A stretch of 26,416 nt of DNA from a virus. The translations under genes and the position numbers were made by a program. The stretch is taken from positions 1-26,416 of IMG/VR virus record IMGVR_UViG_3300006736_002174. One strand, written 5' to 3'. The notes under the pieces are model-generated. The model did not search any database, had not been told where the DNA came from, and saw nothing but the letters and a program-made list of their open reading frames with translations. Positions within the stretch are counted from its first letter, which is position 1, and the number at the start of each line of letters is the position of its first letter. This document shows positions 1,967-26,416 of the stretch, in pieces.

Positions 1967-3886
1967 ATGCCTGAGTATCCAGAGAACATCGGCAGTCAGA
2001 TCGCTTCAGGTCGTAACGACAAGAACTCCTACGCCCGCGTGTGGGATATGTGTACGATGTTTCTCGAAGGGCGTCAGTGGCTTGAGTTCGACCGAGACAG
2101 CAAGAGCTACAACATCAACCGTCGGGCCAGGGCGGACGGTAGCCAGCGGCAGACGGTTAACCTGCTGCTCAACATCTACCGAAACATCCTCGCCCGCCTC
2201 ACGCTGAGCTACCCGTCCATCGCCGTCATGCCGGCCAGTCCGTCTAATGATGACATCATCAAGGCGAAGAGTTCTGAGATAGCGCTTCAGTACTACTGGC
2301 ATCGCGAAGACATGCAGTCAAAGCTCCACAGGGCCATCCAGTGGCTGCTGGTGACCGGCACCGTGGCGATGCACAGCTACTACGACGCCGACGACGACGC
2401 CATCCACACGACCCCCATCAGCCCGTACGACGTCTTCTTCGAGGAGAAGGTCATCGAGCCATGGGACTCTCAGTGGGTTGCGCTGCGCAGTTATCATCTC
2501 GAAGAGGATGTGAAGAAGGCGTACCCACAGTACGCCGATGAGATCGATTCCACCCAAAGCGCCAGCGATGACTACTCGCTCGATAGCGAGCTTCATACGG
2601 TGCCGGATGACCGTGTGGAGTTGATGGAGGTCTACTGGCGAGACGGTCGTCACGCCATCCTTTCGGGCAACCTCTACCTCTACAAGGGCACCTGGAAGAC
2701 CAAGACCTTCCCCGTGGAGATCATCCGCTACACCGAGGTCCCGGGGCGCTTGTGGGGCATCGGCCTGATGCAGCCACTGCTGGACCTTCAGCGCCTCTAC
2801 AACGAACAGCGCACCCAGGTGGTTCACAACGTCAAGCTGATGGGCAACCCCAAGTGGGCCATCCCGAAGACTGCGGGCATCAACGCCTCGGCTTTGACCA
2901 ATCGACCCGGTGAGAAGATTTACTTCAACCCAGCCGGCGGCGCTCCTCAGCAGATTCAGCCAGTTCCGCTTCCTGGCTACGTGCTCGACAGCATCACGCG
3001 AACACAGGCAGAGATGCACGACGTGGCCGGCATCCACTCGGTGAGCCTCGGTAAGCGCGCCGTAGGCGTGAGTTCCGGTAAGGCCATGCAGGTCCTCAGC
3101 GAGCGCGACACGTCTCAGCTCCAGGAGACTCAAAGCAACATCGAGAAGGCCATCCGGTCCCTGGCCAAGGTGGTCTTGGAGTTGATGAAGGAGCACTACG
3201 CAGAGCCAAAGATGGTTCGGATGCTCGACCAGACTGGCAAGGTCATGTACCGGGCCATCAGCAACACCAGCATCGTGGACGATCCTGAGATCTTCATCGA
3301 GGCCGGCAGCGCGTTCCGTCAGGACGCGCGGGACAGAGACCAGTACGTGCTGGACCTCCTCCAGGCAGGCCTCATCACGCCTGAGATGGCGATGAAGGAG
3401 ATCTCCTTCCGTACGGGCAATGCGTTTGTTACCGAGAAGGTCGCAGCCATGTCCCACGCCAAGAAGCTGCTCGAAGCCACCAAGCGTGGGTTCGAGGTGG
3501 AGGTCTTCCTCTCCGACGACATCGCGTCGATGCTCAAGGTCTTCTCCGACTTCGTCCACACTGACGAGTTCTACGGGCTTCCAGAGGAAAGACAGCTCTA
3601 CATCAGAGACGTGGTTGTTGCCCTCAGCAACCCGCAAGCAAACGACATGGAGTTCCAGCAGGCCGAATCCATGCAGAAGGTCTTCCCAAGGCAGCCCGGC
3701 CCCGGCAGCAACCTGAACCAGCAGATGGCCAACCTTGTGGCGGCTGGCTCTGGCGCTGCCCAGGGTCAGATGGCCGAGGAGTCTCTCGGAAGGGCCGGAC
3801 AAGTCCAAGCGCTTGAGAGCGCGCAGTCCGCCCAGGCGGCTGGGCAGGAGGCACTCATCAGTCCCGTCTTCGGAGGTCTCGGATGA
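1967..3886 (+). CDS. Portal protein
   Basis: A 639-aa portal protein, the dodecameric ring at the head vertex through which DNA is packaged and ejected. The ATG follows GGAGGAG at 1954-1960 with 6-base spacing. Typical features are the N-terminal LNIYRNILARLTLSYPSIAV segment, a long helical block with an aromatic-rich QYYWHRE motif, PISPYDVFFEE, then PGRLWGIGLMQPLLDLQRLYNEQRTQ and the later helical stem and wing (residues about 340-480) with VAGIHSVSLGKRAVGVSSGKA. The C-terminal 60 residues are Gln/Ala/Gly rich (QQAESMQKVFPRQPGPG...), like the barrel or tail end of podovirus-type portals. The gene overlaps the downstream adaptor gene by ATGA. Length is within the usual range for short-tailed phage portals. 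Confidence 0.9.
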   Translation: MPEYPENIGSQIASGRNDKNSYARVWDMCTMFLEGRQWLEFDRDSKSYNINRRARADGSQRQTVNLLLNIYRNILARLTLSYPSIAVMPASPSNDDIIKAKSSEIALQYYWHREDMQSKLHRAIQWLLVTGTVAMHSYYDADDDAIHTTPISPYDVFFEEKVIEPWDSQWVALRSYHLEEDVKKAYPQYADEIDSTQSASDDYSLDSELHTVPDDRVELMEVYWRDGRHAILSGNLYLYKGTWKTKTFPVEIIRYTEVPGRLWGIGLMQPLLDLQRLYNEQRTQVVHNVKLMGNPKWAIPKTAGINASALTNRPGEKIYFNPAGGAPQQIQPVPLPGYVLDSITRTQAEMHDVAGIHSVSLGKRAVGVSSGKAMQVLSERDTSQLQETQSNIEKAIRSLAKVVLELMKEHYAEPKMVRMLDQTGKVMYRAISNTSIVDDPEIFIEAGSAFRQDARDRDQYVLDLLQAGLITPEMAMKEISFRTGNAFVTEKVAAMSHAKKLLEATKRGFEVEVFLSDDIASMLKVFSDFVHTDEFYGLPEERQLYIRDVVVALSNPQANDMEFQQAESMQKVFPRQPGPGSNLNQQMANLVAAGSGAAQGQMAEESLGRAGQVQALESAQSAQAAGQEALISPVFGGLG

Positions 3887-24334: not shown

Positions 24335-24384
24335 CTAACAAGACGGACACCATCTATCAAATCGGACAAAACCCTGAAAGAAAG

Positions 24385-24420
24385 TTGGTCTGGTTGGTCT
24401 GGTTGGTCTGGTTGGTCTGG
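24385..24420. repeat. Four perfect tandem copies of TTGGTCTGG (array 1)
   Basis: Copies at 24385-24393, 24394-24402, 24403-24411 and 24412-24420, head to tail with no spacer. The same unit recurs at 26212-26238. The array lies about 50 bases upstream of the -35 box of copy A, in a region without a supported gene. It could be an iteron or operator array bound by a phage protein. Confidence 0.9.
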
Positions 24421-24779: not shown

Positions 24780-25880
24780 CTACTGGGGGGCGAGTAGCCT
24801 CCACGCCAACGCGGCCTGAGCAGGCACTACTCCATTACCTGCGAGACGAACCCGGTCCACCCGGTTGGGATCCCCATCAGGGCCTCCAGGAACGCTGGGT
24901 GCAGGACCGCCTTCTGCGAGGTATCGCTCCCATCCGTCGGCGTCGTCTGGGCCGGGTGGAAATGATGCCGCACAAAGTTGGGCAGCTGCTCCCCCTTGGT
25001 GCCCCCTCCCCTCTCGCTGTAGGGCTTGAGGTTGCCCCCCTTGTGGTCCCGCGCACATGGCGTCGGCCATTGCCTCATCGCATCCGTCAGGCTGGTGCCT
25101 GCGTGCATCACCCCTGTCTGCGTCGTGTGCCTCCCTGAGCTTCGGCTGTCCGAGGCTGCTGGGGTGGGCCAGTTCTTCGCCATCTTGTGCAACGTGCGTT
25201 CGCCCTTCCGGGCTCCCGATCTTGAGCGCATGGGATCCAGCGTCGGGGTCGGCCACATCTGCGCCCACGTCGCCAGACTTGGTGTCCCCGCACTTGGCCT
25301 CTCCTTCTCCCCTCCCTTCCCGTTGATTCCGTTCTGGCTGGAGCCATACCGGGAGGCCGTCGGGGTGGGATACATCCCACGCGACCATGAAGAACCGCGT
25401 CCTACGATGTGGCGCTCCTGCCTCGGCGGCAGTGAGGTCACACGCCCACGCAGCATCGTACCCCTCATCGGCAAGGGACTGGAGCATGATGGGGAGGCCG
25501 CCCTTTCGGACGCCGGGGGTGCATTCGATGAAGACGGCGCGGGGTCGACACTCGCTGATAATGCGAGCAACGTCTGCCCAGATCCATCGCTCATCATCGA
25601 CACCCTCACGCCTTCCTGCGGTGCTCCACGGCTGACACGGGATCCCTGCGAGGAGCAGATCGAGCCCTGCAAGGGGCCGTGCGTCGAATGTCCGCAGGTC
25701 AGTCCAGACAGGAGCCGGATCCATGGCCTCCGCTTGAATCGCCGCAACCAAGTTTGCGGCGGCGAAGGCTTCCCTCTCCACGTAACAGACGACGCGAGGA
25801 TTGAGGCCAGCTGCTCGGAGCCCCAGTTCGAGTCCTCCGTAGCCGGTACACAATGAGAGCACTGTGGGACGTACACCCAT
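24780..25880 (-). CDS. DNA (cytosine-5-)-methyltransferase
   Basis: A 366-aa C5 methyltransferase that would transfer a methyl group from S-adenosylmethionine to cytosine in phage DNA, protecting it from host restriction. Motif I is LSLCTGYGGLELGL (8-21), motif II region YVERE (33-37), motif IV GIPCQPWSTAG with nucleophile Cys82 (79-89), motif VI VFIECTPG with Glu119 but ECT in place of the usual ENV, motif VIII GAPHRRTRFFMVA, and motif X GNGVVPAQAALAW near the C-terminus. Residues about 170-320 are the variable target-recognition region, with repeated (V/L/M)-A-(D/H)-(P/A) steps (VADPDAG, LAHPSS, MADAMC). The start is ATG 25880, four bases after the upstream stop, with GGGGAGG nine bases before it. 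The target sequence cannot be read from the protein. The whole gene is overlapped by a second open frame (see 24827-25885). Confidence 0.93.
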   Translation of the reverse strand: MGVRPTVLSLCTGYGGLELGLRAAGLNPRVVCYVEREAFAAANLVAAIQAEAMDPAPVWTDLRTFDARPLAGLDLLLAGIPCQPWSTAGRREGVDDERWIWADVARIISECRPRAVFIECTPGVRKGGLPIMLQSLADEGYDAAWACDLTAAEAGAPHRRTRFFMVAWDVSHPDGLPVWLQPERNQREGRGEGEAKCGDTKSGDVGADVADPDAGSHALKIGSPEGRTHVAQDGEELAHPSSLGQPKLREAHDADRGDARRHQPDGCDEAMADAMCAGPQGGQPQALQREGRGHQGGAAAQLCAASFPPGPDDADGWERYLAEGGPAPSVPGGPDGDPNRVDRVRLAGNGVVPAQAALAWRLLAPQ

Positions 25881-25885
25881 GACAT
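24827..25885 (-). CDS. Overprinted WPTP-repeat open frame inside the methyltransferase gene
   Basis: A second 352-codon frame on the same strand, shifted relative to the methyltransferase and open over almost the whole gene. Its ATG (25885) overlaps the upstream stop as TGATG, with GGGGAGG four bases before it. It encodes SSVTWRGKPSPPQTWLRRF (32-50), four W/Y-P-T-P motifs beginning at residues 172, 211, 239 and 273 (YPTPTAS, WPTPTLD, WPTPAASD, WPTPCARD), and a C-terminus with LHPAFLEALMGIPTGWT. I recall proteins with just these features from many phage and bacterial genomes. Each WPTP corresponds to (V/L/M/S)-(A/S)-(D/H)-(P/A) in the methyltransferase frame, and the segment over motif IV reads ICSSQGSRVSR. 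It may be a true second product, or a conserved shadow frame; long chance frames are common in this GC-rich DNA. Confidence 0.35.
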   Translation of the reverse strand: MSWVYVPQCSHCVPATEDSNWGSEQLASILASSVTWRGKPSPPQTWLRRFKRRPWIRLLSGLTCGHSTHGPLQGSICSSQGSRVSRGAPQEGVRVSMMSDGSGQTLLALSASVDPAPSSSNAPPASERAASPSCSSPLPMRGTMLRGRVTSLPPRQERHIVGRGSSWSRGMYPTPTASRYGSSQNGINGKGGEKERPSAGTPSLATWAQMWPTPTLDPMRSRSGARKGERTLHKMAKNWPTPAASDSRSSGRHTTQTGVMHAGTSLTDAMRQWPTPCARDHKGGNLKPYSERGGGTKGEQLPNFVRHHFHPAQTTPTDGSDTSQKAVLHPAFLEALMGIPTGWTGFVSQVME

Positions 25886-26148
25886 CACGCCTCCCCTTCG
25901 GTGGGGAAGATGTTCTGACCGAGTGTCTTGTCGTGGACGGGTCGCACGTCCTTCATGTCAGGGAGTGGGCCCGCGAGGGTTTCATGGGCGTGAGACCAGA
26001 AAGAGACGAGCCCCCGATAGTGGTCCAGCAGTTCGGCTTCTGACCATTCCCACGATCGCGTTGCCACTCCGTCGTCGCCAGCCAACCACGCCACCTTGAG
26101 GTTGCGGCGCATGTTTACGATGTCGATGCCCTTCTCTTCTGCGGTCAT
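25885..26148 (-). CDS. 87-aa protein, hypothetical
   Basis: Starts at ATG 26148 (MTAEEKGIDIV) after AGGAGG; in-frame codons upstream run through the promoter and repeat region and are not part of the gene. Features: VAWLAGDDGVATRSWEWSEA, then HYRGLVSFWSHAHETLAG, an aromatic helical stretch, and a hydrophilic tail ending NIFPTEGEA. The stop overlaps the ATG of the overprinted frame and lies four bases before the methyltransferase ATG, so it is the first gene of a short two- or three-product operon ending at 24727. No family recognised; it could be an accessory of the methyltransferase. Confidence 0.7.
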   Translation of the reverse strand: MTAEEKGIDIVNMRRNLKVAWLAGDDGVATRSWEWSEAELLDHYRGLVSFWSHAHETLAGPLPDMKDVRPVHDKTLGQNIFPTEGEA

Positions 26149-26208: not shown

Positions 26209-26211
26209 CGG

Positions 26212-26247
26212 TTGGTCTGGTTGGTCTGGTTGGTCTGGTTGGTCCAA
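26212..26247. repeat. TTGGTCTGG tandem array 2 (three perfect copies plus one diverged)
   Basis: Copies at 26212-26220, 26221-26229 and 26230-26238, then TTGGTCCAA at 26239-26247. Same unit and same orientation as the array at 24385-24420. It starts only three bases upstream of the -35 box of promoter copy B, an activator-like position. Confidence 0.9.
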
Positions 26248-26308
26248 CCCGCCCCGGCGGCGAAAATCCGCGGGGCCTGGGCGAGTCGGCCGCGAAAAAA
26301 TCGAGTCC

Positions 26309-26368
26309 GATCGACGGCCCGATCGACGGCCCGATCGACGGCCCGAACCGACCACCGATCGACGGCCC
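26309..26368. repeat. 12-bp tandem array, unit GATCGACGGCCC
   Basis: Perfect copies at 26309-26320, 26321-26332, 26333-26344 and 26357-26368, with one degenerate 12-base unit (GAACCGACCACC) keeping the register at 26345-26356 and a partial GATC after. The stretch 26248-26416 has no supported gene; it also contains a nine-T run at 26396-26404 near the window edge. An iteron or operator array is possible. Confidence 0.85.
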
Positions 26369-26416
26369 GATCTTGAGAGCTCAGAAGGCCGGATATTTTT
26401 TTTTCACGGCGTCCAG

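Follow-up and report, generated by a model that had tools for sequence, protein, structure and literature searches.

A second reading frame along a phage C5-cytosine methyltransferase gene very probably encodes the complementing subunit of the same enzyme

In the IMG/VR virus record IMGVR_UViG_3300006736_002174 (positions 1 to 26,416, a stretch of 26,416 nucleotides (nt) referred to below as the window), a C5-cytosine DNA methyltransferase gene is overlapped by a second open reading frame (ORF) on the same strand, which raises the question whether this second frame is a gene and, if so, what its product contributes. The two frames, ORF1 (alpha) and ORF2 (beta), have 1051 nt in common, which bears out the roughly 1050 bases given by an earlier, sequence-only reading of the window, and are one base out of phase (+1). 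The second frame is almost certainly a real gene, and ORF1 and ORF2 are very probably two subunits of one C5-cytosine DNA methyltransferase, with ORF2 as the complementing subunit. The features of the locus are as follows.

24783..25880, minus strand: ORF1 (alpha), putative catalytic subunit of the C5-cytosine methyltransferase, 366 amino acids, with motifs I-VIII and X (Pfam, Foldseek, AlphaFold2).
24830..25885, minus strand: ORF2 (beta), the WPTP protein in the +1 frame, 352 amino acids, starting with ATG at 25885; GTG at 25888 is a possible alternative.
25368..25865, minus strand: alpha motifs I-VIII, the S-adenosylmethionine (SAM) and catalytic core (Pfam span; AlphaFold2 predicted local distance difference test score (pLDDT) about 90 or above for most of it).
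25623-25646, minus strand: alpha motif IV with PCQ, in the ORF1 frame.
24801..24863, minus strand: alpha motif X, RVDRVRLAGNGVVPAQAALAW, in the ORF1 frame (phrog_1008 positions 288-315; AlphaFold2 pLDDT >90 at residues 351-366).
24905..25378, minus strand: WPTP-repeat region of beta, residues 170-327, proposed target-recognition part (phrog_1008; homology to ShiLan gp70).
24854..24904, minus strand: motif IX-like block of beta, LHPAFLEALMGIPTGWT, residues 328-344 (in the +1 frame in nearly all relatives; helix at 330-337).
25880..25896, minus strand: shared start region GGGGAGG-CGTG-ATG (beta, 25885)-TC-ATG (alpha, 25880) (sequence; paired starts in relatives).

Synonymous-codon shuffling of ORF1 gave a mean longest run of 167 codons in the +1 frame, and the 350 codons seen in the window were reached by about 1 in 300 shuffles. 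Relatives were collected by two viral scans, one per frame (288 and 563 relatives, 80 kept from each), and by a scan of bacterial genomes (361 relatives, 80 kept). In 102 loci picked for motif IX in +1, the core of this frame, counted from 20% of alpha to motif IX, holds 1 stop codon as compared to 293 expected from synonymous shuffles, and the loci with a guanine plus cytosine (GC) content <0.55 hold 0 stops vs. 171.6 expected. The openness of the +1 frame persists at 42-50% GC, and the +2 frame is full of stops. Among the loci fetched by the methyltransferase frame alone, which were not selected for ORF2, p<0.01 was obtained for the +1 frame in 47 of 56 and for the +2 frame in 0 of 56.

A substitution test, which is independent of the bias that selection for motif IX and kinship bring into the stop counts, was applied to 36 disjoint sequence pairs. 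For ORF2 it yielded a dNN/dNS of 0.57 (0.52-0.62) and a dSN/dSS of 0.45 (0.40-0.52), as compared to 0.85 (0.77-0.95) and 1.17 (0.93-1.60) when 17 flanking genes were treated in the same way. Purifying selection acts on ORF2 to a degree beyond that of the flanking-gene controls. In the catalytic half the divergence at the three codon positions is 0.13/0.079/0.265; ORF1 dominates here and ORF2 is still constrained (dSN/dSS 0.43). Past alpha codon 165 the values are 0.254/0.136/0.215, while flanking genes show 0.096 at position 1 and 0.315 at position 3. Since position 1 of ORF1, which is the wobble position of ORF2, varies most in this part, ORF2 is the more constrained protein after codon 165. 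The sequence-only reading had named stops in the second frame beside an intact methyltransferase, together with a lack of extra constraint at synonymous sites, as the outcome that would speak against a gene. With a stop-free +1 core in 101 of the 102 loci and the dSN/dSS values given above, the second frame survived this comparison.

A real, perhaps widespread overprinted protein was one of the two outcomes offered by the same reading, and indeed the overlapping arrangement was found in at least 170 loci of phages and of bacterial genomes from several phyla. The phages with the pair infect Salmonella, Klebsiella, Acinetobacter, Pseudomonas, Vibrio, cyanobacteria and others, and include Salmonella S9-5, Klebsiella BUCT711, Acinetobacter ABMM1, Pseudomonas phPA-G, Vibrio 1.236, Microcystis Mel-JY01, Acidovorax Alfacinha1 and Synechococcus Ssp-JY39. 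In the genus of Pseudomonas trivialis, 10 of 200 genomes (about 5%) match. Motif IX is recognisable in about 100 of 151 distinct viral loci with a methyltransferase domain, almost always in +1, and it lies in +1 in 70 of 77 bacterial loci. Motif IX in +1 combined with motif X in frame 0 occurs in 94 of 105 viral loci and 68 of 71 loci of bacterial genomes, motif X usually lying 65 nt after the start of motif IX.

The start sites also bear on how beta could be made. In the main subtype, A, a distance of 4-13 nt separates the start codons of alpha and beta in most loci where both could be recognised, and the beta N-terminus M-[TSG]-W-x-[YF]-[VI]-P is kept in relatives. Two such starts are ATGAATGAGTTGGCTC, encoding MNELAL (alpha) and MSWL (beta), and ATGCATGACCTGGC, encoding MHDLA and MTWL. 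In the window, ATGTCATGGGTGTAC encodes MSWVY (beta) and MGV (alpha); the beta start lies 5 nt upstream of the alpha start, and one GGGGAGG precedes both. The first fifth of the +1 frame of subtype A contains 10 stops vs. 109 expected. In subtype B, which comprises 10 nested loci, the same part contains 50 stops vs. 38.8 expected, and afterwards 0 vs. 57 expected. The internal start of subtype B is mostly an ATG at alpha codon 55-60, usually after a Shine-Dalgarno-like AAGGA or AAGGAG. This stop pattern, a control contained in the gene itself, is hard to explain without translation of beta.

What the two proteins carry appears to be complementary. In agreement with the sequence-only reading, which took one frame for a C5 methyltransferase, ORF1 matches Pfam PF00145 (DNA_methylase) with an expectation value (E) of 4.5e-27, limited to residues 6-171. 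PCQ of motif IV is invariant in all aligned relatives of ORF1, and the motif IV segment LLLAGIPCQPWS reads ICSSQGSRVSR in +1, as had been stated. The ENV of motif VI is ECT in the ORF1 of the window and begins with EN in nearly all relatives. Motif X (LAGNGVVPAQAAL) lies in frame 0 and matches positions 288-315 of phrog_1008, a match that is weak taken alone (E 0.18). ORF1 thus carries motifs I-VIII and X of a C5 methyltransferase. Motif IX and a target-recognition domain are absent from the same chain: a search of frame 0 for motif IX found none, and AlphaFold2 orders residues 1-178 and the motif X helix (351-366) and leaves 180-340 disordered, with no ordered recognition domain. The alpha model was matched by Foldseek to the large domain of M.HhaI and M.HaeIII over about 170 columns with a probability of 1.00.

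ORF2 residues 209-345 match positions 132-279 of the phrog_1008 profile ('DNA methyltransferase') with E 4.1e-21, and the C-terminal match of ORF1 is the next part of this profile after the stretch that matches ORF2. Because phrog_1008 is matched by ORF2 and then by motif X of ORF1, the WPTP region and LHPAFLEALMGIPTGWT would correspond to the part of a single-chain enzyme just before motif X. Furthermore, the ORF2 block LxPxFxExLMGxPxGWT and the WPTP repeats correspond to the part of single-chain relatives that holds the recognition region and motif IX. The catalytic motifs I-VIII were not seen to match phrog_1008, whose label is silent on a separate subunit in another frame, and which is matched by ORF2 and its relatives. 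The sequence-only reading had described each WPTP as the shifted reading of V-A-D-P-type repeats of the methyltransferase. This is right in kind but loose in detail: the four xPTP are shifted readings of SHPDG, VADPD, AHPSS and MADAM.

The beta model has little order ahead of residue 131; partial order is seen at 132-155 and 200-345, with a hairpin at 142-151 and helices from 204 onward. Motif IX is its most confident part, with a mean pLDDT of 91 in the block that holds helix 330-337. Order and disorder of alpha and beta are therefore predicted to be reciprocal along the overlap, as is expected if a given stretch of DNA has to encode a folded part in just one of the frames.

Because ORF2 has the motif IX and the recognition region that are missing from ORF1, which the sequence-only reading had not noticed, the two are probably pieces of a single enzyme. 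From these data we infer the following course of events. Alpha would fold as the large catalytic domain, with motifs I-VIII and the motif X helix and without a small domain, and would supply SAM binding and catalysis. Beta would initiate under the same ribosome-binding site as alpha and supply target recognition by the WPTP repeats together with motif IX. The two proteins would then associate to a complete methyltransferase, and the rebuilt enzyme would methylate the phage genome, probably against host restriction.

Several observations weigh against this interpretation. In locus L139, 1 of the 102, a stop interrupts the beta core beside an intact alpha, and L087, outside the 102, has a stop at 37%. 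The stop counts are not independent trials, as the loci are related, but the shortfall of stops is large. The ORF2 model is of low confidence (pLDDT 55; predicted template modelling score 0.26), and because the model is weak and a PDB relative is lacking (the ORF2 profile found nothing below E 0.6 among PDB sequences), the likeness of beta to the small domain of C5 methyltransferases depends on the motif IX pattern and on the fused relatives. Finally, about one repeat is left in the WPTP region of the S9-5 pair, and therefore the repeats cannot all be essential.

Two-polypeptide C5 methyltransferases have been described. M.EcoHK31I, which recognises YGGCCR, consists of a large subunit with motifs I-VIII and X and a small subunit with motif IX alone, and its predicted target-recognition domain was placed on the large subunit (PMC3404938). 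In M.AquI the catalytic half and the recognition and motif IX half are on separate polypeptides (PMC3404938). The window pair resembles M.EcoHK31I in that alpha carries motifs I-VIII and X and beta motif IX. As Lee et al. are reported to have described in 1995, the small EcoHK31I gene lies in another frame inside the large gene. Beta, being read in +1 over alpha, would share this layout, and the nested subtype B resembles it. Differences are that in the window and the main subtype the two start codons are only a few bases apart and the genes overlap almost wholly, and that the WPTP region is on beta, unlike the predicted recognition domain of EcoHK31I. M.EcoHK31I is moreover a restriction-modification enzyme, whereas the window encodes a phage methyltransferase next to which no nuclease gene was recognised. 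With M.AquI the pair shares the separation of catalytic and recognition/motif IX halves; in the M.AquI type, however, motif X is on the small subunit, whereas in the window it is in alpha. From the known two-polypeptide C5 enzymes the pair is set apart by an almost full overlap from nearly one start, by carrying the WPTP region on beta and by its spread among phages and prophages. A literature search found the EcoHK31I and AquI precedents and no account of such an overlap in phages, which is weak evidence as most subscription journals were outside the search.

Natural variants show how the parts can be rearranged. Of 176 relatives examined, 5 have motif X moved into beta; among them are L240 (Paraburkholderia) and L261, where alpha is closed after motif VIII, the old alpha frame has decayed and beta remains open, with motif X at its end. 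In Samora, Wile, GaugeLDP, Upyo, Samy, phiBT1 and Camerico, alpha and beta stand one after the other, as annotated genes or as genes that can be recognised, and the beta profile already matches within alpha in +1. L240, L261, GaugeLDP, Samora and phiBT1 are closer to M.AquI. ShiLan gp70, Baddon gp4 and prophiGD91-2 gp27 combine the catalytic domain with the C-terminal half seen in the pair, but on one polypeptide. In ShiLan gp70, residues 2-160 correspond to alpha (hhalign 100%) and residues 221-355 to beta (hhalign 97.1%, E 7e-11). In all three single chains the match to the beta profile starts in +1 and goes on in frame 0, and the +1 frame over their catalytic domain matches this profile with E 1e-26 to 1e-30. 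This suggests that the single chains arose by frameshift fusion of an overlapping pair. We consider it reasonably likely that the two-frame overlap is the normal architecture of a large phage and prophage branch of C5 methyltransferases, in which the coding of the large and the small domain is superimposed in +1 and order and disorder are reciprocal, and that the actinophage single-chain and sequential split forms are derived by frameshift fusion or separation.

Could the two halves be joined during translation instead? Programmed +1 frameshifting would link the alpha N-terminus to the beta C-terminus, and ORF2 would need no start of its own. Consistent with this, nearly all loci in which motif IX was identified have beta in +1 relative to alpha, and there are relatives with both halves fused in a single chain. 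Nevertheless, beta has a conserved start of its own near that of alpha, or an internal start usually with a Shine-Dalgarno-like sequence, and in subtype A openness and constraint of the +1 frame already hold ahead of any point at which a shift would be of use, as the low stop count in its first fifth indicates. A second shift would also be needed, because motif X is back in frame 0. We therefore regard frameshifting as improbable. A real overlapping gene with another role, for example that of a regulator or an anti-restriction protein, would fit the first 130 residues of ORF2, which have no known match outside ORF2's own family and are predicted disordered. It is no more probable than frameshifting, as ShiLan, Baddon and prophiGD91-2 join motif IX and the WPTP region to the catalytic domain, beta has exactly the parts that alpha is missing, and motif X can shift from alpha to beta.

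Far less credible is the other possibility raised by the sequence-only reading, that ORF2 is a functionless shadow of a GC-rich methyltransferase gene and the WPTP proteins in databases are artefacts. GC-rich members can be fairly open in +1 by chance (p = 0.3 for L005), and long spurious frames do exist in the window. The idea was rejected on the stop, substitution and nested-subtype tests: the frame remains open at moderate GC next to a +2 frame with many stops, the amino acids of ORF2 are more strongly conserved than the flanking-gene controls would suggest, and the nested subtype opens at the beta start. An out-of-frame mobile element like the HNH endonuclease of the 'ShiLan domain' was likewise rejected as very improbable, as ORF2 spans the whole catalytic domain rather than forming an insertion and searches of Pfam, PHROGs and NCBIfam matched it to no nuclease family, HNH included, even if out-of-frame insertions in phage methylases are documented (PMC11855218).

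If ORF1 and ORF2 are two subunits of one methyltransferase, the overlap has consequences for annotation. Annotations of overlapping loci usually show one gene of the two; pipelines choose one frame and so hide the other half of the enzyme. The overlap thereby offers a reason for some phage methyltransferases that look inactive, and cloning by the annotated frame alone may yield half an enzyme, or both halves unknowingly. The 'hypothetical' WPTP protein family gains a role, which would explain puzzling database entries. Long same-strand overlaps with both proteins demonstrably under selection are rare outside small viruses, and the one described here extends over about 1 kb.

Individual records illustrate the point. 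phiBT1 gp9.1 (L273, 1333-2380) is annotated 'DNA methylase may be inactive', and its motifs IX and X are in an unannotated +1 frame (1451-2380). The Synechococcus phages Ssp-JY39 (L010) and Yong-M2-251 (L275) have corresponding genes with identical profile scores that are annotated in different frames: one record shows the beta frame ('hypothetical protein') and the other the alpha frame ('cytosine-specific DNA methyltransferase'). In the Acidovorax phage Alfacinha1, gp46 (L011, 1835-2968), called 'cytosine-specific methyltransferase', is the beta frame, and the catalytic frame is unannotated.

Some copies are damaged. In L231, L230, L242, L254 and L229, alpha is interrupted by single stops or by a frameshift and beta is open apart from that, due to decay or sequencing errors. 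In the prophage copy of E. coli PCP07014 (L189, 2001-2762) both frames are broken at one place, and the gene is annotated as a pseudogene with an internal stop.

The sequence-only reading had cautioned that long frames occur by chance in the window. A 496-codon antisense frame is indeed open across the portal-like gene (2318-3808, minus strand); it has no bearing on ORF2. An antisense frame of 276 amino acids over the methyltransferase (25026-25856, plus strand) weakly matches phrog_38519 (E 4.7e-4), and this family of unknown function may itself be made up of antisense readings of methyltransferase genes. Direct repeats of the GGTTGGTCT type (ggttggtctggttggtctggttggtct) at 24384-24420 and 26209-26245 flank the methyltransferase and its upstream ORF, and CGATCGACGGCC is present in several copies near the right end of the window, at about 26308-26370.
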